Positions 10,209-31,208 of a stretch of 35,809 nt of DNA are shown here, in pieces; position 1 is the first letter of the stretch; each line of letters begins with the position of its first letter. Location: the NCBI GenBank assembly GCA_012689325.1, contig JAAYEA010000273.1, forward strand, positions 1 through 35,809. Direction: 5' to 3'. A program made the translations under genes and the position numbers. The stretch is from Chloroflexota bacterium (lineage in GTDB: Bacteria; Chloroflexota; Anaerolineae; JAAYEA01). The notes under the pieces are model-generated. The model was given only the letters and a program-made list of their open reading frames with translations, did no database searches and was not told the DNA's origin.

Positions 10209-11408
10209 CTAGACGGTCACCGCGTAGACGTCGCTGCGTCCGCGGTGGGCGGCGTTGAACGAGATGTAGCGGCCCGCGGGGTCGCAGAGCGGATGCGGGT
10301 GGGGGAACTGCCCGCCGATGCTGTTCCACTCGGTCTCGTGGCGGGCGATCACCTCGATGCGGGGCTGCTCCTGGTCGTAGTAGAGCCAGAGGAGCAGGTC
10401 GGTGCTCAGGTTGCCGTCGAGGATGATGGCGGGACGGCCAGCCATGGCCGAGACGTGGCCGTAATGGGGCGCCTTGTCGAACAAGTACTCGCGCACCGTC
10501 TCCCCGCGCTTGTTCACCACGCCGATATAGTGCCCGCTGACTGCGCTACGGCCGTGATAGACCACCCCCTCGCCGTCCCAGGTCCAGGCCGAGTGCACCT
10601 GGAAACGGGCCTGGTCCCGCGGGGGCAATTCGGTGAGCTGCTGGGTGGAGATGCGCAGCGTCCAGATGCGGTTGGTGCGGCCATCGCTGCCGCCCCAGAA
10701 CTTGGGGGGAAAGTCGCGGTCGATGAGCAGCAGGTCTCCATCGGCGGGGCAGTGGGGGTTGTGGGAGCAGCCGATGTTGTCCTCGCGGTAGATCACTTCC
10801 ACCGGGCCGCCGGCGAGGGGGACCTGCCAAAACTCGAGCTTCATGCCTCCCCCGGCAAAGTGCTCCATGTAGCCCTTGGTGGGGCGCTGGCCCAACATCA
10901 GCTCGGGGTGCGCGCTCTTGACCGAGATCACCACGTGCTCTTCCGCCGGGTCGATGCTGGGCATGCCGGTCATCCACTGCTTGCCGATGTGAGGGATCAG
11001 CACGCGTTCCTTCAGCGTGCCCAGTTGCACCGCGCGCAGCGCCTCGTCATCGCAGAAGGCCACCCAACCGCTCCTCGGCGCGATGCACATGCTGCCGATG
11101 ACGCCCTTCCCGGAGCTCATGGCGCTGCCGGCGCTGTACTGCAGCGACCCATACCCGCCGATGCCATCGATCGGATCGATGAGCTGCGTGATATCGCCAG
11201 TGGGCACATGGGCGGCAAAGATGGCGCTCATCCCGTCCCTGGCGGAAGCGAACACCAGGTACTCGCCATCCTCGCTAAAGCCGACGTTCGTATGATAGGT
11301 GGGCGTCTGGTTATAGAGGCCCTGCGTGGTGATCTGCCGCACCTCGCGCAGCGTCCAGGCGTCGCGGTAGGTCTTGGACTCGTTCCAGGTCTCGCCTTTG
11401 TGAGCCAT
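10209..11408 (-). CDS. Oligogalacturonate lyase-like beta-propeller (PL22-type)
   Basis: This 399-residue, apparently cytoplasmic seven-bladed propeller has TolB/WD-like blades. The opening (SKTYRD..T..EVRQIT... with YFxxxxxFSEDGEYLVFAS-like spacing) and the ending HPHPLCDPAGRYISFNA resemble oligogalacturonate lyases of family PL22. These cleave short uronate oligomers by Mn-dependent beta-elimination. Gln367, His370 and His372 (G-G-Q-F-P-H-P-H-P) reproduce the Q-x2-H-x-H spacing of the PL22 metal site. His318 is a candidate additional ligand. I chose the ATG at 11408 because AAGGAGGGG lies directly upstream, although the frame extends to 11438. It is the last gene of the sulfatase operon, 39 bp after the sulfatase stop. 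It could instead be a non-catalytic TolB-like propeller. Confidence 0.65.
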   Translation of the reverse strand: MAHKGETWNESKTYRDAWTLREVRQITTQGLYNQTPTYHTNVGFSEDGEYLVFASARDGMSAIFAAHVPTGDITQLIDPIDGIGGYGSLQYSAGSAMSSGKGVIGSMCIAPRSGWVAFCDDEALRAVQLGTLKERVLIPHIGKQWMTGMPSIDPAEEHVVISVKSAHPELMLGQRPTKGYMEHFAGGGMKLEFWQVPLAGGPVEVIYREDNIGCSHNPHCPADGDLLLIDRDFPPKFWGGSDGRTNRIWTLRISTQQLTELPPRDQARFQVHSAWTWDGEGVVYHGRSAVSGHYIGVVNKRGETVREYLFDKAPHYGHVSAMAGRPAIILDGNLSTDLLLWLYYDQEQPRIEVIARHETEWNSIGGQFPHPHPLCDPAGRYISFNAAHRGRSDVYAVTV

Positions 11409-11447
11409 TTCCCCTCCTTGGGATGTCCTCAGGGCCAACGAAACTGG

Positions 11448-12848
11448 TCAGGCGCCGTACCCGCTCCAAAAGGTCTGCCCCCACTTGGTATCGCGATCGC
11501 CCCACTCGTCTCGATAGCGGACCAGCTCGGCGCGCAGCTCGGCGAGCTTGGCTGCATAGGCCGGGTCGCCCGCCAGGTTGTGCACCTCGATGGGGTCGTT
11601 CTGCAGGTCGAAGAGCTGGGTGTGCCGCTCGCCGCGAACCACGTACTCGATGAGCTTGTGGCGGCGGTCTCGGATGCTGCGTTGCAGGCCCGAATAGGCG
11701 TAGAAGAAGGTATCTCGCACCTTCTCCCGCGGGTCGCGCATGGCCGGCACGAGGCTGCGCCCCTCCACGGTGGCGGGAGCGGGTGCGCCGATGAGATCGC
11801 AGAGGGTGGGGTAGATGTCCAGAAGATAGGCAAAGGCATCGGTGCGCACATTGCGCGGGATGCCGGGCCCGCACATGATCAGCGGCACGCGGACGCTGTG
11901 CTCATAGTTGCTCTGCTTCCCCATCAGGCCGTGCTGGCCGAGGGCCAGGCCATTATCCCCGGCAAAGACGACGATGGTGTTGCCCGCGCGGCCGGTCTCC
12001 TCCAGGGCGCGCAGTATCTCGCCGATCTGGTAATCCAGATGGGAGATCATGGCATAGTACTCGGCGATGTGGCGGCGGATCTCATCCGGCGTGCGCGGGA
12101 AGGCCGCCAGTTCCTCGTCCCGGATGTGCAGCGCGCCGTTATCGAAGGGGTGCTCGGGCATGAAATTGGCGGGCAGTTCGATCCGGGCCGGGCCATACAT
12201 CTCTAGGAAGCGCTTGGGCATGGAGCGCGGGTCATGCGGCGCCATGAAAGCGACATAGGCGAAGAAGGGTGCCTGGGAGTCGTAGCCCCGCAGAAAGCTG
12301 ATGGCCGCCTCGCCGAACAGGTCCGTGGAGTGCTTGCCAAAGGTGACGTGGTCGACGTGCTGCGGCGTGACCGTGTTGTCCCCATACGGGTTGCGAATCC
12401 AGGGCGTGGCCTCGGGGTAGCGTCCGCTCGGGTCGAAGCGACAGGCGGGCACATTCCAATGATCGGCCATGCCCCCGAAAAAGATCTCAGCGCCATCGGA
12501 GAAGCTGCGGGCGTAAGAGCTGGGGCCGTTGTGCCACTTGCCGATGCCATAGGTGCGGTAGCCTTGAGCCTGCAGATGCTCACCCAAGAGCACGTGCTCG
12601 TCGGGGATATACTGACCCGCCTCGGCGAGGTGAAAGAGGGTGCGGCCGGTGTGCAGCATCGCTCGGCTGGGCATGCAGACCGCGCCCACGGTCCCGCAAG
12701 GGATGCAGGCGTGGGTAAAGCTGACGCCCTGGCTGACCAGGCGGTCCATGTTGGGGGTGTGGATGGCCTGGCAGCCCAGTGCATGGATGGTATCGAAGCG
12801 CTGGTCGTCGGTGAAGAGCAAGAGGATGTTGGGCTGGTGGCTGGACAT
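11448..12848 (-). CDS. Sulfatase (type I, formylglycine-dependent), cytoplasmic
   Basis: This 466-residue sulfatase of the alkaline-phosphatase superfamily has Asp14 and Asp15 (FTDDQR) as calcium ligands. The activation motif C58-M-P-S-R62 carries the cysteine that is converted to formylglycine. GKWHNG follows, and AGDNG supplies the later Asp-Asn metal ligands. The C-terminal subdomain ends with [15 protein letters not shown], typical of the family. There is no signal peptide, so desulfation should take place inside the cell. I chose the ATG at 12848 because AAAGGAG lies just upstream. The open frame continues to 13385 but there overlaps the next gene. It is the third gene of a four-gene operon with another sulfatase and two propellers. 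Maturation needs a formylglycine-generating enzyme or anSME, and none is encoded in this window. Confidence 0.95.
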
Positions 12849-12871
12849 GGTCGCTCCTTTCGCGGTGGCGG

Positions 12872-13981
12872 CTAACGCAGCAAGCTCTCGGCGTCTTGCC
12901 GGCTCAGTTGGTGCATCACGAGCGGTTGGGAGCCGTTGGGCTGCGACTGCTCCCAGGTGGCGAGATAGCCGTCCTCGGTGGGCAGCACGTCCACGTAGCG
13001 GCTGGCGCCGGTGCCCCAGGGCGAGACGAACATGGGCAGATAGAGCGACAGCCGCTCGTGCACCCGCAGGTCGCGCTCCAGCGCCACGGCCACGCCGCCC
13101 AGTTCCTCGCACGAGTAACCCCGCGGGCGCCGGACCGCCTTCGCGTGCTCGTCGAGGTTGCGCACGGACTCGCCGCCATCGTAGAACATGAGCACCAGCG
13201 GCTCGCCATCGGTGAAGGGGCCGATCTGCGGCACGCGCAGCAGGCCAGTGATCCGGCTCATGGCTACGTCCCAGGTGGCGCCACGGGGAAAGAACTCGAA
13301 TACCGGCGGGCCAAAGGCCGCCGCTCCGGCGCGCCGCACCGCGTAGGCCGAGTTGGAGCTGGTCCAGCAGTAGGGATGGGTGCAAAAGACCAGCACCGTG
13401 TCGCCGTTGGTCCGCTCATAGACCACCGGGTCCTTGACGTGCACGTAACGCAGGTCGCGGCACTCCAGCAGCGGCTCCACCTGCGCTTGGCGGAGCTCAT
13501 AGATGGTTGGCGCGCGGAGCCGCTCGATCGTCCAGACGCCGGTGCCCGGCTTTTGATAGGCCTCCCAACCCTCGGGATAGCGGATGTCGCCCTTCTCGCT
13601 GGAGACGAACAGCTCGACGCTGCCGTCAGCCGCAAAGCGCAGCGCGGAGCCCTCGATGGATTCGACGGCATGGCCCGCGACGTCCAGGTCGCGCTTGGAG
13701 AAGGACAGGATGGTGTTCCAGGTGAAGCCGCCGTCTCGCGACGTGAGGATGTCCAGCGCAAGGCCGCGCTCGCCCAGGCCCAGGCCCGTGCGCGAGTCGC
13801 CCTGGTTGCGGAAGCGGCCGGTCAGGTAGAGCGCCCCGTCGGGCCCGGCGACCATGTTGCCGCCGCCGAACCAGTGGCCGCTGGCAGGACGCTTGGGGGC
13901 GACGATCACCTGGGCGCGTTGCTGATTGACGAGCGCCTGGCAGAAGCGGATCAGGGCGATTCTCTGCGTCTCGGTTAGCAA
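12872..13981 (-). CDS. Asp-box (sialidase-like) beta-propeller protein
   Basis: This protein of about 369 residues lies between two sulfatase genes. The N-terminal part has a G-N-M-V-x-x-P-D-G strand pattern and an Asp-box (S-R-D-G-G-F-T-W), hallmarks of BNR/sialidase-type or five-bladed glycosidase propellers. Further blades follow with repeated aromatic and DG turns. I cannot assign a catalytic triad with confidence, so it may be a glycoside hydrolase or a binding protein. Start choice: the ATG at 13999 has no SD, whereas TTG at 13981 has AAGGAG at 6 nt spacing, so I prefer TTG. There is no signal peptide. The stop lies 23 bp from the next sulfatase start. It probably acts on the same sulfated oligosaccharide as its neighbours. 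Confidence 0.8.
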
Positions 13982-14007
13982 GATGATCTCCTTCCCCATG
14001 TCTGGGT

Positions 14008-15423
14008 TCAGGCCGATGCGCCGGGGCGGCTGTAGCCCTGCTCTTGGTAGCGCGACAGCAGGCTGCTGAGGTGCGCCACGATCTCGGGCTGTGCGGCCCA
14101 GCGGTTGCGCGCCTCGCCTCGATCATCGTCCAGACGATAAAGCTGTCCCAGGGGGTCGCCCGGCCGAGGCTCCGCAGAACGTGGCTCGGAGAACCCGCCC
14201 GAGCCTAGCCCCATGATCAGCTTCCAGGGTCCCTGGCGGATGGAGAACATCCCCTCGCCGGAGTGGTGGACGATGGCCTCCCGGATCGGCGCAGCGAGCG
14301 GCTCTGCGAGCAGCGCGGGCAAGACGCTATGGCTATCTGAGGCGGCGCTGGGTGGCAGCGCGTAGCCGACGATCTCGGCCACGGTGGCCATGAGGTCCAC
14401 CAGGCAGATGGGCTCCTGGCTGACCGCGCCCGCGGGGATCACGCCCGGCCAACGGGCGATGAAGGGCTCGCGGTGGCCGCCGTCCCAGATGTCCGCCTTC
14501 TGGCCGCGCAGGTCGCCGCAAGCTTTGTGCCCATAGTCGCGCCCGTCATAGTTGGTCAAGCGGGCGCCGTTATCGCTGGTGATCACCAGCAGCGTGCGAT
14601 CGGCGATCCGGTGGCGGCGCAGCGCCTCGTCGATCCGGCCCACCATCCAGTCCACCATCACGACCATATCGCCGCGCTCGCCAGCCTGGCTCGCGCCCTT
14701 GACAAAGTCCGGCGGCACGCAGGGACGGTGCGGCGCGGAGGGGGTCAGGTAGAGGAAGAAGGGCCGGTCCGGGTCACGCCGCATCTGCCGGTCGATGAAA
14801 CCGACGGCCTTTTCCGCAAAGACGGTGTCCACCTGGGCGTCATCCCAGCCGGGGACCATTAGCCCCGGGCGCTGTTGCGGGTTGTAGGGGTGCTTTTCCT
14901 CGCTGGGGATGCCTACAGTGTGGTTGTCCTCGATGAAGCAATAGGGGGCCATGTCCAGCGAGCCCGTGATGATAAAGCACGTGTCAAAGCCGTGCTCCCG
15001 CGGGCCGCCTTGGATGGGAGCGCGATAGTCGACGTTGGCGCCGTCGGCGGCCGGAGGCTCGCCGTCCAGGGTGGTCCAGCCCAAGCCCAGGTGCCACTTG
15101 CCCACGGCCGCGGTGGCATAGCCAGCCTGACGGAGCATCTGGGCGATGGTCAGTCGGCTGGGCTCGATGAGCGGCGGCTCAAAGCCCCAGAGGACCCAGC
15201 GCTTGAGCGGGCTGCGCCAGCAATAGCGGCCCGTCAACACGCTGTAACGGCTGGGGGTGCAGACCGCCGAAGAGGAGTGGGCGTCCGTGAAACGCATCCC
15301 TTCGGCGGCGACACGGTCGGCATGGGGGGTCTGGATCTTGTGCGCGCCGTAGCAACTCAGGTCGCCGTAGCCCATGTCATCGGCCATGATATAGATGATA
15401 TTTGGCCGCTTCGGGTCGCTCAT
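14008..15423 (-). CDS. Arylsulfatase-type sulfatase, cytoplasmic
   Basis: This 471-residue type I sulfatase has Asp15 and Asp16 (MADDMGYGD) and the formylglycine motif C55-T-P-S-R59 followed by LTGRY. Further family motifs are GKWHLG, PSAPHRP and TSDNGA, with the C-terminal LYRLDDDRGEARN. The layout is that of arylsulfatase A-like enzymes and resembles sulfatases acting on carbohydrate sulfates. There is no signal peptide. The ATG at 15423 has AGGAGG about 10 nt upstream and a consensus promoter at 15467-15495. It is the first gene of the leftward operon. Its two catalytic partners downstream (a second sulfatase and a PL22-like lyase) suggest ordered intracellular depolymerisation and desulfation. 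Confidence 0.96.
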   Translation of the reverse strand: MSDPKRPNIIYIMADDMGYGDLSCYGAHKIQTPHADRVAAEGMRFTDAHSSSAVCTPSRYSVLTGRYCWRSPLKRWVLWGFEPPLIEPSRLTIAQMLRQAGYATAAVGKWHLGLGWTTLDGEPPAADGANVDYRAPIQGGPREHGFDTCFIITGSLDMAPYCFIEDNHTVGIPSEEKHPYNPQQRPGLMVPGWDDAQVDTVFAEKAVGFIDRQMRRDPDRPFFLYLTPSAPHRPCVPPDFVKGASQAGERGDMVVMVDWMVGRIDEALRRHRIADRTLLVITSDNGARLTNYDGRDYGHKACGDLRGQKADIWDGGHREPFIARWPGVIPAGAVSQEPICLVDLMATVAEIVGYALPPSAASDSHSVLPALLAEPLAAPIREAIVHHSGEGMFSIRQGPWKLIMGLGSGGFSEPRSAEPRPGDPLGQLYRLDDDRGEARNRWAAQPEIVAHLSSLLSRYQEQGYSRPGASA

Positions 15424-15466: not shown

Positions 15467-15495
15467 ATCATAGCACGCTCCGCGCCGGATGACAA
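15467..15495 (-). promoter_or_regulatory. Promoter for the sulfatase operon
   Basis: On the minus strand, TTGTCA (15495-15490) and TATGAT (15472-15467) are exactly 17 bp apart. The predicted start is near 15460, giving a leader of about 37 nt. It is back-to-back with the rdgB promoter, and only 18 bp separate the two -35 boxes. Confidence 0.78.
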
Positions 15496-23565: not shown

Positions 23566-24897
23566 TCAGGAAAACATGCTGCCCATGCCGTGAGCCTCGA
23601 TCAGGTCGTCGCACAGGCTGCGGATCTGATCCAGCGTCAGCTCGGCGCTGGTATGCGGATCGAGCATGGCCGCGTGATAGACCGTGTCGCGCCTGCGGGT
23701 GAACGCCGCTTCGATGGTGAGGAGCTGCGGGTTGATGTTGGTGCGGTTGAGCGCTGCCAACTGCTCGGGTAGCTCGCCGACGTAGCAGCCCTGCACGCCA
23801 TTGCGGTCCACCAGGCAGGCCAACTCGACCACCGCTTTGGCGGGCAGGTTGGGGATGAGGCCGGTGTTGAGCACGTTGCCGCCGATGCGGAACGGCTCGT
23901 CGGTCTCGATGGCGTTCATGATCCCGGAGCCGTATTCGTGGGTGCGGGTATGGGTGAGGGCGGGGTTATGCACCAGCTCCTGGCTCTGCGTCTTCCAGCG
24001 CTCGATCTGGCGGATGCAACGCCGCGGGTACTCGTCCAGCGGGATGTTGAACTCTTCGATCAGTTCTGGGTATTGGCTCTTGATCCAATAGGGCATGTAT
24101 TCAGCGCTGTGCTCGGAGGATTCGGTGACATAATACCCGAATTGGCGCATCATCTCGAAGCGAACCATGTCGGTGTGCTTGGGGCCGCCGGCGCGGGCCG
24201 CGCGGTTCATCTCGGCGGCGCGGCGCTTGACCTCCGGGTAGAGGTCCACGCCGCCATCGGTGATCTCCAGGAGCCAAGCCTGGTGGTTGATGCCGCCCAC
24301 CTTCCACTGGAGCTTGCCGACCTGGTCGAACATCCCGACGCGCTTGAGCAAGCCCGTGGCGCAGCCCTGCACCGAATGGCATAGCCCCACCGTCTTGATG
24401 CGGGAGCCGCGCAGCATGGCCCCGGTGATCATGGCCATCGGGTTGACATAGTTGAGGAACCAGGCCTCCGGGCAGACCTCTTCCATGTCGCGGGCAAAGT
24501 CCAGGCAGACCGGGATGGTGCGCAGGGCGCGAAAGATGCCGCCGATGCCCAGGGTATCGGCGATGGTCTGGCGAAGGCCGTACTTTTTCGGGACCTCAAA
24601 GTCGATGACGGTGGCGGGCTCGTAGCCGCCCACCTGGATGGCGTTCACCACATAGTTGGCCCCGCGCAGCGCCTCCTTGCGGTTCTCGACTCCGAGGTGG
24701 CCGGTGATGGTGGCGCGACCGGCGTTGATGTTGCGGTTCAGCACGTCCATCATCATCTTGGACTCTTGCAGGCGCTGCCCGTCGATGTCATAGAGCGCGA
24801 TGTGCGCGTCGCGCAGCGAATCGGTGAGCATGCTATCGCCCAGCACGTTCTTGGCAAAGATGGTGCTGCCCGCGCCCATAAAGGTGATCTTTGGCAT
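23566..24897 (-). CDS. GH4 family glycosidase, alpha-galactosidase (MelA) type
   Basis: This 443-residue NAD- and Mn-dependent glycosidase uses the oxidation/elimination route of family GH4. The N-terminal Rossmann motif is FMGAGS. The class-defining motif is C173-H-S-V-Q, the form found in alpha-galactosidases (alpha-glucosidases have CHG-, glucuronidases CHE-). GGINHQAW supplies His205, the second metal ligand. The length matches the family. There is no signal peptide, so it acts on imported sugars. The ATG at 24897 has GGAGGA 9 nt upstream. The sugar isomerase gene lies 44 bp upstream in the same operon. A galactose-containing oligosaccharide is a plausible substrate. The motif-based specificity call is less certain than the family call. 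Confidence 0.92.
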   Translation of the reverse strand: MPKITFMGAGSTIFAKNVLGDSMLTDSLRDAHIALYDIDGQRLQESKMMMDVLNRNINAGRATITGHLGVENRKEALRGANYVVNAIQVGGYEPATVIDFEVPKKYGLRQTIADTLGIGGIFRALRTIPVCLDFARDMEEVCPEAWFLNYVNPMAMITGAMLRGSRIKTVGLCHSVQGCATGLLKRVGMFDQVGKLQWKVGGINHQAWLLEITDGGVDLYPEVKRRAAEMNRAARAGGPKHTDMVRFEMMRQFGYYVTESSEHSAEYMPYWIKSQYPELIEEFNIPLDEYPRRCIRQIERWKTQSQELVHNPALTHTRTHEYGSGIMNAIETDEPFRIGGNVLNTGLIPNLPAKAVVELACLVDRNGVQGCYVGELPEQLAALNRTNINPQLLTIEAAFTRRRDTVYHAAMLDPHTSAELTLDQIRSLCDDLIEAHGMGSMFS

Positions 24898-24941
24898 CTG
24901 TGAATTTCCTCCAAATGGATTAGTGGACTAGTTGGCGCGCC

Positions 24942-25754
24942 TCAGGCGAGGGCGCTGAGCCAGTCAAAGTTGCGCTGGAGCGTCGCGACCCTCTCTTGGG
25001 GCGTCGCGCCGTCGATCTTGGCCTCATAGTTGAATGGCCCCGTGTACCCGATCTCGGCCAGCGCGGCCACAAAGCCGCGCCAATCGAGCACGCCCTTGCC
25101 GGGCATCTCGTGCTTTTCGTCGATGCCGTCATAGTCGGACATGTGCAGTGTCCAGAGGCGGGCGCCGAGCTGGCGGACCACGTCGGGAAGGGTAGCGTAG
25201 CGATTCATCAGATGGTTGGTGTCCAGGCAGACGCCAAAGACCTGAGGGTCCAGCGGCTCGAGGATGGTGAAGAGATCCTCGACGGTATTGCCCAGACAGG
25301 TGCGGGGCAGCAGCTCGATGGCGATGCGCTTGCCCGCCTTGCGGCAGCGCTCGCCGACCTCGGCCAAGGCTCGCTGAGCCAGGGCGGTGCGCTGCGCCCG
25401 CTCCTCGGGCAGCACGGGCTCGGCGCTCGAGTGCATGACGATCATCGGCGCGCCGAGGGCGATGGCGGCGTCCAGGGCGAGGTCGGTGTGGGTTAGCGCC
25501 TGCGCCCGTTCCGTGGGGTCCAGCACCGAAAAGTCGTACCCTTTGCCGAAAAGCGCGTGGATGGTCATGGGACGCACGCCGCAGCGCTCCAGCATCCGGT
25601 CCAGGACGGCCATCTTGGCGCGGCCGCCTTCTTCAAAAAAGCGCGCCATGACCTCCACGGTGGCGATGCGGGAGGCGCGGAGGGCTTCCTGGAGGGTGTC
25701 GTCGATCTCGCTCGAGATACCGTGCAGGGAGACACCGAGTTTGGGTTGGTACAA
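24942..25754 (-). CDS. Sugar phosphate isomerase/epimerase (xylose-isomerase-like TIM barrel)
   Basis: This 270-residue AP-endonuclease-2/xylose-isomerase-like TIM barrel shows the metal-site residues of the family: Glu in IAIELLPR, Asp in CLDTNHLM, His in HMSDYDG and Glu in FNYEAK near the end. The length is typical of the sugar phosphate isomerase/epimerase group. TTG at 25754 is the start, because AAAGGAG lies 6 nt upstream. It is cytoplasmic. It stands next to the GH4 gene, so it may convert a ketose or keto-acid released from that substrate. The exact reaction cannot be read from sequence. Confidence 0.9.
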   Translation of the reverse strand: MYQPKLGVSLHGISSEIDDTLQEALRASRIATVEVMARFFEEGGRAKMAVLDRMLERCGVRPMTIHALFGKGYDFSVLDPTERAQALTHTDLALDAAIALGAPMIVMHSSAEPVLPEERAQRTALAQRALAEVGERCRKAGKRIAIELLPRTCLGNTVEDLFTILEPLDPQVFGVCLDTNHLMNRYATLPDVVRQLGARLWTLHMSDYDGIDEKHEMPGKGVLDWRGFVAALAEIGYTGPFNYEAKIDGATPQERVATLQRNFDWLSALA

Positions 25755-25766
25755 GACGGACTCCTT

Positions 25767-26468
25767 TCAGTCGCCGGTTGACGGGGGCGCGGTCGTCCCC
25801 TGTAGGCTTTTTAGGTTCCCCACGTACTCGCGCAGCACGTCCGGGTCGTCATATCCGCGGCGAATGGCCAACTGGACTTCTGCGTCGGCCTCGGCAGGTC
25901 TCCCGGCCATGGCGTAAGCGGCGGCCAGGTTGCCGTGGGCCACGGCCAGGCGCGGATCGAGCGCCACGGCCCGCTGAAGGTGCCCGATGGCGCGCTCCGG
26001 CTCGTCACCGTGGATGTATAGAGCTCCCAGGTTGTTGTACGCCTCGGCGGACTGGGGCTCGGCGGCCAGGGCCTTCCGGTAGCACGCTTCCGCTTCCTCC
26101 ACTTTGCCCTCGGCATCGTGGAGCAGGCCAAGTTGCAGCCAGCCCGACACGTGCCCGGGGTTGATGCTGAGCGCTTTCTCAAAGGAAGCAATGGCCCGCT
26201 CCCGCTGCCCCAGCGCCCGCTCCGCCTTGCCGAGGACGGTGTAAACGTCCTCTCGCTTGATCTGTTTCACTCCGAGGATGGTCGCCTGGCGGAGCTCCTC
26301 CGCCGCGGTCACATAGTCCTTGCGCACATAGGCTGCCATCCCTCTCTGGGCGCGCCCGTCGCCTGTCCGGCTGTTGCCGGCCAGCGCGGCGACCTTTTTC
26401 ACCGAAAAGTAGACGATGGCCAGCGATAGGGCAGTGCGAATGATCCGCAGAATGATCTCTTCGTCCAT
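25767..26468 (-). CDS. Membrane-anchored TPR protein
   Basis: This 233-residue protein has an N-terminal membrane segment (about 7-27). About five TPR units follow from residue 45 onward (SGWLQLGLLHDAEGKVEEAE, AYNNLGALYIHGDEPERA, AHGNLAAAYAMAGRPAEAD), and a short disordered tail ends the protein. The probable role is scaffolding of other proteins at the membrane. It lies 15 bp from the gene upstream and 12 bp from the isomerase downstream. Its topology resembles the TPR protein at 17832 but the sequence is clearly different. Partners unknown. Confidence 0.87.
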   Translation of the reverse strand: MDEEIILRIIRTALSLAIVYFSVKKVAALAGNSRTGDGRAQRGMAAYVRKDYVTAAEELRQATILGVKQIKREDVYTVLGKAERALGQRERAIASFEKALSINPGHVSGWLQLGLLHDAEGKVEEAEACYRKALAAEPQSAEAYNNLGALYIHGDEPERAIGHLQRAVALDPRLAVAHGNLAAAYAMAGRPAEADAEVQLAIRRGYDDPDVLREYVGNLKSLQGTTAPPSTGD

Positions 26469-26483
26469 GTGCGCTCGCGCTTC

Positions 26484-26987
26484 CTATTTGCACCAGAGCT
26501 GGCCGATGCTGCCGCCCAGGGTGCTGTAGATCACTTTCCAGTGGCGCCAGGGCAAGTTGGCGCCCACGGTGTCCAGCGTCGCCTCGCCGGTCTGGCGCTG
26601 GCCGCCGGGGCAGGCGACGGTGACGCCGACGGCTAGGTTGTGCCGCCCCGCCTCGGTGCGCGCCGGCTCGCCCACGTGAACTTCGACGACCTCATAGGGG
26701 GTGCCCAGCACCCGTTGCAGGCAGATCTCCGAGCAGCCCGCCCCGAGATCATAGTAAGCGCGATTGTCCCAGCAGCGGGTGAGCGCGTCGCGGTCACCCT
26801 GGCCGACCAGCCCGAGCAGGCTGCGAACGACCGCCTCCGGGGATCGGTCGAACCCGCCAGTGCAGTTGTCATAATACAGTGCGCGTCCTACTAGATAGAC
26901 GATAACGGGCAACAGGAGCAGGCCCAAGATGAGCGCCATCTGCCGGTTGCGGCGCGCCATCCTCTCGCGATAGTAGGTGTCGGTCAA
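26484..26987 (-). CDS. Small membrane-anchored protein with NTF2-like extracytoplasmic domain (tentative)
   Basis: This 167-residue protein has a basic N-terminus, one membrane helix (about 18-38) and an outer domain of about 125 residues with five or six cysteines. SPEAVVRSLLGLVGQGDRDALTRCWD looks like the helix-turn-helix opening of NTF2-like/DUF4878 domains, but I cannot confirm the fold. TTG at 26987 is the start, with a perfect AAGGAGGTG 5 nt upstream. An internal ATG at residue 10 is an alternative. It sits between the glycosidase-like gene and the TPR gene. Function unknown. Confidence 0.8.
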   Translation of the reverse strand: MTDTYYRERMARRNRQMALILGLLLLPVIVYLVGRALYYDNCTGGFDRSPEAVVRSLLGLVGQGDRDALTRCWDNRAYYDLGAGCSEICLQRVLGTPYEVVEVHVGEPARTEAGRHNLAVGVTVACPGGQRQTGEATLDTVGANLPWRHWKVIYSTLGGSIGQLWCK

Positions 26988-26999
26988 CGATACACCTCC

Positions 27000-29162
27000 T
27001 TACGGCATCCGTTGCAGCCCCTCCCAGCGCACGCTCCACGAGCCATCCTGCGGAAAGCCAGGGGCGTTGACCTCCGGCGCGCCATCCCATCCCGCGGCCA
27101 TCATGGCGGCCGCCATGAGCAGCCCGCCGTTGCCGGGCAGGTAGATGGTCAGGCCCTCACGGTTATAGTTGTGCCCGTTGGGCAGGTAGGTGTTGCGCGG
27201 GTTGGGCGAAAGCAGGGCGTCCACTGCCAGCCCTGGCTCGCCGACGCGGGCCGCGGTCATGGCGGTCATGGGATAGTCCCAGCCCCAGGTCTTGTCCTGC
27301 CAGCGCCAGGTTTCCAGCACGCGATGCAGCGTGCGGCGCATGGTCTCGCGATCGGCCAGGGCCCCGGGCAGGATGCCCAGCGCGCCGAGCAGCGAGGGGT
27401 GATCGTTGCGCTGGCTCTTGTCGGTGAAGGTGTGCGGGTGGGAGCCGGCGTTGACGTACATGCCGCCGGCCATGGGGAGCGGCGGAAGGTGGCGCAGGAC
27501 GTGGTCCCAGCGCTCGTCGCGGGCCAGCCCGAGGCGCTCTCGCCAGGACTGCGCGGTCGCCAGTCCCCAGGACCAATACTCCAGCTCAAAGGTGGGGTCC
27601 CAGGTCTCCTCGGCGCGATAGGTCTCCTGGGCGGGGATCAGCGGCGGGCCCAAGCGGTAGCAGCCCGCGCTCTCGATCCACACGGCGAAGGAAGACATGA
27701 ACTCGGCGGTCTCGAGCACGATGGCGCGGTACCGCTCTAGCGTCTGCCGGTCGCCGCGCAGCCGATAGAGCAACTCGGCGTAATAGATGGGGTGCGGCTG
27801 CTGCCAGATCAGGAACGGCCCGATGGGCGAGGGCGAGTCCAGCCCATCCGGGCCGACCATCTTGGGCCAGCGCGCTCCGGTGTAGCCCTGGCGGCGCGCC
27901 GTCTCTTGCGCGCCGGGGAGGATGCGGTCATAGTAGCCAAGGCTTCTCTCCAGCAGCTCGGCGCGACCCCACAGGGCAAAGTGAGCCGCGTGCCACCAAT
28001 GCATCTCCAGGTGGAACTTGCCGTACCAGCTATTGAAGGTCAGGCCCGTCTCCTGGGGCGGCAGCGACCCGGCGCATTGGATCGCGGTCAGGTACTGGGA
28101 GAGGACGATCCGGCGCTCCAGCTCGGCGGCACGCGGGTCGGCGCTGCCGGAAAGGTCGATGGCGCCGCCGGCGCTCCAGAAGCGCTCCCAGTGCGCCCGG
28201 CAGGCGCTCGCGGTCTCGGCCACTGTGGGCAAGTCCCCGAGGGGCCCTTGGGAGAACGCCACGGCGCACTCGATCGCCTTTTGCCCAGCCCCAGGCATGA
28301 CCACAAACGAGTGCGGTCCGACCTCCTGAAGCGCTCCTTCAGGCGACCAGGCCACGGCCACATGGTAGCGGTCCGCGTCCAGGGTGCGCAGCAGGTCGGC
28401 GCGCCGCGGCCCGTGCTGCGAGGGCTGCGTCTGATGCCGTTCCGGCGCATTCCAGTCGCCACCGGAGCCCGTGTGGGTGGCGGAGCCGTACGGAAAAGCA
28501 AGCGATAGGCTGATCCGGCCGCTGGCGAGGAGCAACGACTCGACGCGGACGGCCACCAGGTCCAGCGCCGGGTGAACCCAGGTGTGGACCAGGACGGGCT
28601 CGCCATCCACGGAGAAGCGGCTGATCAGCGTGCCGGTCCAGAGGTCGAGGGTCTGGTGCGGATCGCCGAGCTCGGGGAGCGCCACCGGCGCGCCGTCGAC
28701 GTGGCGCAGGACCAGGCCCAACCGCCCCAGGTCGAGCCGGTGGGGGTTGGCGCGGAGCCAATCAACGGCGACGGGGTCCACGCGCCGGTCGGGCTGCGCG
28801 GGGTCGCGCGCCGACCAGGCCGCTGCCGGGCCGTGCGGGCTGGGGCTGACCGGGTAGGGCGCCGGGCGGCCATAGGTGTCGTAATAGCGAAACGCCTGCT
28901 CCTGGTGGAAGCCATGCAGGTTGGGGAAGGAGTGCCAGCCCCACTGCGCCTGGGTGCCCAGGGGGATCACGCCGGGGAGCGCGGGGTCTCCTCCCGTCTC
29001 GTAGAAGCCAGGGAAGGTCTGTAGCCCGGTGATATCGGCGGTGAAGGCGAACTCGCCGTTGCCCACGGTGAGCGGCGAGAGCGGCGTTGGCTGTCGCACC
29101 GTGGGGTTGTGGCGGGTCACCAAACGGCGCCTGTCGATGGGCGCGGAGATCTCGTCGGGCAT
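27000..29162 (-). CDS. Large six-hairpin glycosidase-like protein
   Basis: This protein has 720 residues from the ATG at 29162, which has AGGAGG just upstream (the frame reaches 29192). The N-terminal 270 or so residues look like a beta-sandwich domain. From about 330 on, aromatic-rich helical segments (FHLEMHWWHAAHFALWGR, RWPKMVGPDG, ETYRAEETWDPTFELEYWSWG, DKTWGWDYP) fit an (alpha/alpha)6 barrel as in GH65/GH95 and related families. It has several Glu and Asp candidates but I cannot name the catalytic pair. There is no clear signal peptide, so it may be intracellular. It lies 26 bp from tpl and 12 bp from the next gene, in the middle of the nine-gene run. Family unassigned. Confidence 0.82.
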   Translation of the reverse strand: MPDEISAPIDRRRLVTRHNPTVRQPTPLSPLTVGNGEFAFTADITGLQTFPGFYETGGDPALPGVIPLGTQAQWGWHSFPNLHGFHQEQAFRYYDTYGRPAPYPVSPSPHGPAAAWSARDPAQPDRRVDPVAVDWLRANPHRLDLGRLGLVLRHVDGAPVALPELGDPHQTLDLWTGTLISRFSVDGEPVLVHTWVHPALDLVAVRVESLLLASGRISLSLAFPYGSATHTGSGGDWNAPERHQTQPSQHGPRRADLLRTLDADRYHVAVAWSPEGALQEVGPHSFVVMPGAGQKAIECAVAFSQGPLGDLPTVAETASACRAHWERFWSAGGAIDLSGSADPRAAELERRIVLSQYLTAIQCAGSLPPQETGLTFNSWYGKFHLEMHWWHAAHFALWGRAELLERSLGYYDRILPGAQETARRQGYTGARWPKMVGPDGLDSPSPIGPFLIWQQPHPIYYAELLYRLRGDRQTLERYRAIVLETAEFMSSFAVWIESAGCYRLGPPLIPAQETYRAEETWDPTFELEYWSWGLATAQSWRERLGLARDERWDHVLRHLPPLPMAGGMYVNAGSHPHTFTDKSQRNDHPSLLGALGILPGALADRETMRRTLHRVLETWRWQDKTWGWDYPMTAMTAARVGEPGLAVDALLSPNPRNTYLPNGHNYNREGLTIYLPGNGGLLMAAAMMAAGWDGAPEVNAPGFPQDGSWSVRWEGLQRMP

Positions 29163-29188
29163 TTCGCCTCCTGCAGAGGGTATCGCGC

Positions 29189-31208
<2,020 letters not shown>

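Follow-up and report, generated by a model that had tools for sequence, protein, structure and literature searches.

Organization of the locus

We analyzed a window of 35,809 bases, comprising the whole of contig JAAYEA010000273.1 (C159) in the 5.29 Mb draft genome (97% complete) of a Chloroflexota bacterium belonging to the Anaerolineae, in which four co-directional genes on the minus strand encode, in order, a sulfatase (SULF1), a β-propeller protein (PROP), a second sulfatase (SULF2), and a protein resembling the oligogalacturonate lyases of polysaccharide lyase family 22 (PL22L) (Table 1). We conclude that the operon is real and that it encodes carbohydrate enzymes that appear to stay inside the cell. 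The genes are separated by gaps of 8 nt between SULF1 and PROP, 23 nt between PROP and SULF2, and 39 nt between SULF2 and PL22L. The initial annotation of this DNA assigned all four genes one orientation and one promoter, and we find a single promoter-like site before them, located 44 nt upstream of SULF1 and recognized by its match to consensus. The four genes are presumably transcribed as a single unit. Scanning 6.5 kb gave two promoter-like sites, compared to 0.6 expected by chance, the second of which faces a divergent gene. SULF2 is best read from the ATG at 12848, which has the Shine-Dalgarno sequence AAAGGAG ahead of it; a 645-residue open reading frame for this protein was rejected as an over-extension from a far-upstream TTG. 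The PL22L ATG is preceded by AAGGAGG, and a TTG located a few codons inside PROP is a possible alternative start.

Table 1. Features of the sulfatase/lyase operon, in coordinates of the window.
Feature	Coordinates	Strand	Description
Sigma-70-like promoter	15467..15495	(-)	TTGTCA-17 nt-TATGAT, TG before -10 (extended -10); consensus match only
SULF1	14008..15423	(-)	471 residues; formylglycine-type S1 sulfatase, C55-T-P-S-R
PROP	12872..13999	(-)	375 residues; predicted five-bladed β-propeller, GH43/GH32-like fold
SULF2	11448..12848	(-)	466 residues; formylglycine-type S1 sulfatase, SGSH_C-type C-terminus, C58-M-P-S-R
PL22L	10209..11408	(-)	399 residues; divergent oligogalacturonate-lyase-like (PL22) propeller

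SULF1 and SULF2 have intact catalytic sets

The two proteins match the Pfam Sulfatase family with E values of 2e-53 and 4e-43, and each carries C-x-P-S-R together with the full catalytic set of an S1 formylglycine sulfatase, in agreement with the initial annotation. Matching by motif to the AtsA list of PMC6388578 identifies these positions as D15, D16, C55, R59, K109, H111, H232, D284, N285, and K309 in SULF1, and D14, D15, C58, R62, K104, H106, H205, D298, N299, and K311 in SULF2. Both sets are invariant in seven-member orthologue alignments. The nearest solved structures to SULF1 in profile comparisons are S1_15 sulfatases (E 1e-106 to 1e-94), and the complete formylglycine catalytic set is common to SULF1 and to BT3333 (6S20), BT1624, and S1_15A/B (9BAS/9BAU). 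We take 6S20 to be BT3333, an N-acetylgalactosamine (GalNAc)-6-sulfatase. The Asp-Arg-His recognition triad that characterizes S1_15 galacto-6-sulfatases (PMC6994673, PMC10154612) is nevertheless broken in SULF1: the Asp is retained, the Arg is replaced by Met (SLDMAP rather than TVDRVP), and the His-bearing segment is absent. Assignment of SULF1 as a 6-sulfo-GalNAc sulfatase was not accepted for this reason. Moreover, BT3333 is a periplasmic protein with a signal peptidase II (SPII) signal (PMC6994673), whereas SULF1 has no signal peptide. No sulfatase subfamily is clearly indicated for SULF2.

PL22L has the fold and active-site positions of a PL22 lyase

Six PL22L homologues, taken from the present genome and from others, can be aligned along their entire length, and the resulting family profile matches 3PE7 (full-length, E = 3e-14) and 3C5M (E = 1.5e-11) far above TolB propellers. 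The predicted structure (predicted local distance difference test score (pLDDT) 81, predicted template modeling score (pTM) 0.85) also finds 3C5M and 3PE7 as its top matches in the PDB, with an E value of 3e-20 and template modeling (TM) scores of 0.73-0.74, the next match being at 6e-10; sequence identity to these solved enzymes is 18-19%. Counting along the profile alignment, H216, R247, H272, H318, Q367, H370, and H372 of PL22L correspond to H192, R217, H242, H287, Q350, H353, and H355 of 3PE7, and R247, H272, H318, Q367, H370, and H372 are invariant among the six homologues. Abbott and co-workers are said to have reported in 2010 that the PL22 metal is bound by three His and one Gln, with a His acting as base; in 3PE7, we take H287, Q350, H353, and H355 to be the metal site and H242 and R217 to be the catalytic His and Arg. 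On the basis of profile and model, the PL22-type fold and active-site positions of PL22L are firmly assigned as genuine, and its β-elimination activity is predicted. PL22L thus resembles the oligogalacturonate lyases of this family (3PE7, 3C5M; PF14583) in its propeller fold, in its His/Gln metal-site and His-base positions, and in its location, known PL22 enzymes being cytoplasmic. It differs from enterobacterial PL22 enzymes in adjoining sulfatases, or heparinase II/III-like proteins in relatives, rather than a pectin system. PF14583 scores 148.8 bits against another member of the phylum (L070), and a plasmid search returned one distant haloarchaeal PL22-family protein.

The neighborhoods of PL22L elsewhere are independent support for work on uronates. 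In L052 (contig C86 of G031), a gene 69% identical to PL22L is accompanied by an SBP_bac_5 importer, a UxuA-like dehydratase, a xylose-isomerase-like protein, and two Hepar_II_III_C-like proteins (24.2 and 23.5 bits; cut-off 24). The 65% identical gene in L053 is followed by a Hepar_II_III_C protein (32.8 bits) and, farther on, by a full heparinase II/III protein. In L142 (G507), PL22L lies near a weakly matching Hepar_II_III_C-like protein (19.5 bits) whose N-terminus is similar to that of its L052 counterpart, a PfkB protein, a mannitol-type dehydrogenase, and an SBP_bac_1 importer. An importer and sugar-acid genes therefore stand beside PL22L in two of these three relatives (L052 and L142), and a heparinase II/III-like protein in all three. 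The heparinase-like proteins of these loci score near the Pfam cut-off and may represent a divergent lyase group. Within the genome under study, a PL22L paralogue (L056:4113-6757) is found directly downstream of a gene of glycoside hydrolase family 4 (GH4), with no sulfatases alongside.

PROP is a putative glycosidase-like propeller

The initial annotation described PROP as an Asp-box propeller, a description that we have revised because the protein has a single Asp box (S87-RDGGFTW) and a predicted five-bladed, GH43/GH32-like fold. PROP gives no Pfam match at E values up to 1 and no match in the plasmid search. Its AlphaFold model is of moderate quality (pLDDT 67, pTM 0.74), and at this model confidence the fold matches, with GH43 (five-bladed) first and sialidase and GH32 structures also present, reach an E value of 1.5e-7 and a TM score of about 0.5. 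An Asp-box sialidase (GH33), which would have several Asp boxes and six blades, was rejected on the grounds of the single Asp box, the lack of a Pfam BNR/sialidase match, and the five-bladed GH43 proteins at the top of the fold matches. GH43 and GH32 glycosidases combine a five-bladed propeller with three catalytic carboxylates; in PROP, the carboxylates D89, E116, D190, D244, D274, D337, and E350 are invariant, with no clear Asp in the first blade. We regard PROP as a putative glycosidase-like propeller, its function being predicted from the modeled fold. PROP homologues elsewhere in the phylum are 26-32% identical, and two of them adjoin oxidoreductases that are Gfo/Idh/MocA-like as judged by sequence. 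Near the PROP homologue in L073 there is also a SelA-like pyridoxal phosphate enzyme of the type that lies beside two signal-less sulfatases in the present genome (L061:1-4910; G000:C346).

Sulfatases without export signals are a trait of the lineage

Reading by hydropathy and start-codon inspection (rather than SignalP) reveals no hydrophobic core, twin-arginine (Tat) motif, or lipobox at the N-termini of SULF1, PROP, SULF2, and PL22L, as had been proposed from the initial annotation, and neighboring membrane and exported proteins used as controls score high. The same annotation contrasted this set with the usual polysaccharide-utilization systems, whose sulfatases lie outside the cytoplasm; that a cytoplasmic location distinguishes this locus is not supported. 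The genome has 35 sulfatase matches, and none of the 30 loci inspected (L001-L030) has a signal peptide. In all but L030 a start codon, in most cases accompanied by a Shine-Dalgarno match, lies 1-10 residues ahead of the conserved motif at the N-terminus, and the upstream part of L030 is short and polar. We also read 30 sulfatase loci (L151-L180) from 12 related genomes, these being best-scoring matches rather than a random draw. Ten of these genomes, which have 8-39 sulfatases each, contribute 26 of the loci, and a hydrophobic N-terminus is seen in none of the 25 that are readable (L162 starts inside the domain). The other four come from two genomes with 3-5 sulfatases; L160, L172, and L174 have signal or lipobox sequences, and L161 has a long Ala/Thr-rich N-terminal extension. 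Since sulfatases of the two sulfatase-poor relatives are read as signal-bearing, the method does detect signals, and since those of this genome and its sulfatase-rich relatives are all signal-less, a cytoplasmic location is characteristic of the lineage rather than of this locus. This general habit of sulfatase-rich Anaerolineae is a more interesting point than the locus itself, and we did not find it described in the papers that our search covered.

Kiritimatiellales F1 and F21 resemble the present genome in possessing very many S1 sulfatases, a single anaerobic sulfatase-maturing enzyme (anSME), and several proteins with a formylglycine-generating enzyme (FGE) domain, but 354 of 521 and 339 of 480 of their sulfatases, about 70%, carry signal peptides (PMC6388578). 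In their glycosaminoglycan utilization loci, Bacteroides thetaiotaomicron and Pedobacter heparinus similarly combine sulfatases with uronate lyases and GH88 enzymes, which work on sulfated uronic oligosaccharides. The present genome has the same three kinds of enzyme, yet the sulfatases of those two species are periplasmic (PMC10154612). A polysaccharide utilization locus of the Bacteroidota type was rejected here because the annotated neighbors include no SusC/SusD-type genes and the proteins are not exported.

Candidates for sulfatase maturation and oligosaccharide import

The initial annotation proposed to look outside the window for a sulfatase-maturation enzyme and a sugar transporter; the genome has a maturase and ABC importers. 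There is one true anSME, which scores 418 bits against TIGR03942 (cut-off 349) and has the CxxxCxxC and SPASM cysteines; its gene adjoins a Gfo/Idh/MocA-like gene and lies near a PfkB kinase. The FGE domain (PF03781) has seven matches in the genome (L031-L037). Canonical FGE carries a pair of active-site Cys residues, and none of the seven has this pair in its C-terminal segment, so that a canonical FGE was rejected as the maturase. Importers are exemplified by L057:1721-8546 (G000:C317), where an FGE-domain gene, a signal-less sulfatase beginning MPIETRPN, a substrate-binding protein with a Tat signal, and two Opp-type permeases run in this order and in one direction, so that the sulfatase directly precedes the ABC importer. 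The arrangement illustrates directly how one cell could import a substrate and then desulfate it. The FGE-domain protein that directly precedes the L057 sulfatase is without the Cys pair, and an EgtB/FGE-like gene (L088:574-1437) is convergent with the SULF1 orthologue in G592. Nine Hepar_II_III matches and two GH88 matches are also found in this genome. On the contig of the operon there is a second carbohydrate cluster (23566-29192, minus strand), consisting of a GH4 gene, which matches the alpha-galactosidase subfamily at 613 bits, a gene for a xylose-isomerase-like protein, and one for a 730-residue protein without a Pfam match.

A proposed function for the operon

We propose, at a probability of roughly 0.57, that the four genes constitute an operon for the breakdown of a sulfated, uronic acid-containing oligosaccharide after its import. 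The oligosaccharide would be taken up by an importer encoded elsewhere in the genome, and in the cytoplasm the radical-SAM maturase would convert C55 of SULF1 and C58 of SULF2 to formylglycine. The two sulfatases would then take off two differently placed sulfate esters, after which PL22L would cleave a uronosyl linkage by metal-assisted β-elimination with a histidine base, and PROP would probably hydrolyze or bind a further sugar. The chemistry that the initial annotation read from the locus is sound, no export signals having been found, a PL22 profile match having been obtained (with a caveat for Pfam, given below), and a maturase being encoded; its interpretation as a whole is partly supported.

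Several observations weigh against this proposal. SULF1 relatives (E<=1e-60) are present in 12 of 298 genomes of the class and SULF2 relatives in 27, with nine genomes having both, and the neighborhoods inspected among these relatives, several of them on short contigs, contain no PROP, PL22L, or other sulfatase of the pair. Orthologues of SULF1 (68-72% identity) and SULF2 (59-67%) stand without the other operon genes. Close copies of PL22L occur in four of 16 other genomes tested (G001, G031, G507, and G551), with SULF2 present but unlinked in two of these four, and in a phylum-wide draw of 400 genomes a close PL22L is seen in the present genome only; neither SULF1 nor SULF2 appears in the L052, L053, L142, or L056 loci. 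We rejected a conserved four-gene system because the set is absent from the neighborhoods of SULF1, SULF2, PL22L, and PROP relatives, and, as far as seen, the operon is private to its own genome among the genomes examined. Because the linkage is found in one genome only, action of the four enzymes on one substrate is something that we infer. In addition, there is no transporter for the four-gene set within the window, PROP has no assigned catalytic residues, and the analysis points to no particular substrate. An alternative reading is that the four genes are catabolic but serve different substrates, intracellular salvage enzymes having come together by chance or recently. Each sulfatase would then have a small sulfate ester or a sulfated sugar of its own, and PL22L would act on oligouronides that carry no sulfate. 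The linkage of PL22L relatives to lyases and importers rather than to these sulfatases fits such a grouping, and with more than 30 sulfatases in the genome chance neighbors arise easily. The very short gaps and the one promoter nevertheless argue against it, as does the strong SULF2 match in nine of the 12 sampled genomes with a strong SULF1 match. Among all 298 genomes such a SULF2 match is found in 27, a contrast that is inflated by kinship. We consider separate substrates a serious alternative that is on balance unlikely.

It is improbable, in our view, that PL22L has kept the fold and taken another job, such as a different metal-dependent reaction or sugar sensing, leaving a locus for desulfation only. 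This idea draws on the distance of PL22L from characterized members, at 18-19% identity, and on the single-sequence Pfam search, in which PL22L scores 26.8 bits against PF14583, below the gathering cut-off of 30; on that search the PL22-like lyase of the initial annotation falls short, and it is upheld by the family profile, predicted fold, and active-site positions. The invariance of the 3PE7 metal-ligand and base positions across six homologues and the uronate enzymes adjoining PL22L in relatives both speak for a lyase. Least probable by far is an export that needs no classical signal, with the enzymes acting outside the cell. The location of known PL22 enzymes in the cytoplasm is at odds with export, and signals are lacking throughout the sulfatases of this genome and its sulfatase-rich relatives, whereas they are detected in the sulfatase-poor relatives. 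We found nothing in favor of such a route; there is only the general precedent that sulfatases are exported in Bacteroidota and in the Planctomycetes-Verrucomicrobia-Chlamydiae (PVC) group (PMC6388578, PMC10154612).

Implications

Sulfation shields polysaccharides against microbial attack, and the well-studied solutions to this problem desulfate outside the cytoplasm. A lineage with internal sulfatases must own importers able to take up oligosaccharides that are still sulfated, a prediction that can be tested directly. We tentatively suggest, at somewhat less than even odds, that sulfatase-rich Anaerolineae degrade sulfated uronic polysaccharides import-first. The whole sulfatase repertoire, tens of enzymes in each genome, would then work in the cytoplasm together with a divergent clade of PL22, and the target of a PL22-type lyase would be a uronic oligosaccharide that is, or once was, sulfated, instead of pectin. 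Literature searches returned nothing on PL22 with sulfatases in Anaerolineae, nor on sulfated-pectin lyases, and, if this suggestion is true, the substrate and pathway would be ones not described for PL22. It would then widen this family beyond pectin and give a hint of how Anaerolineae gain carbon and sulfate from sulfated matrices.

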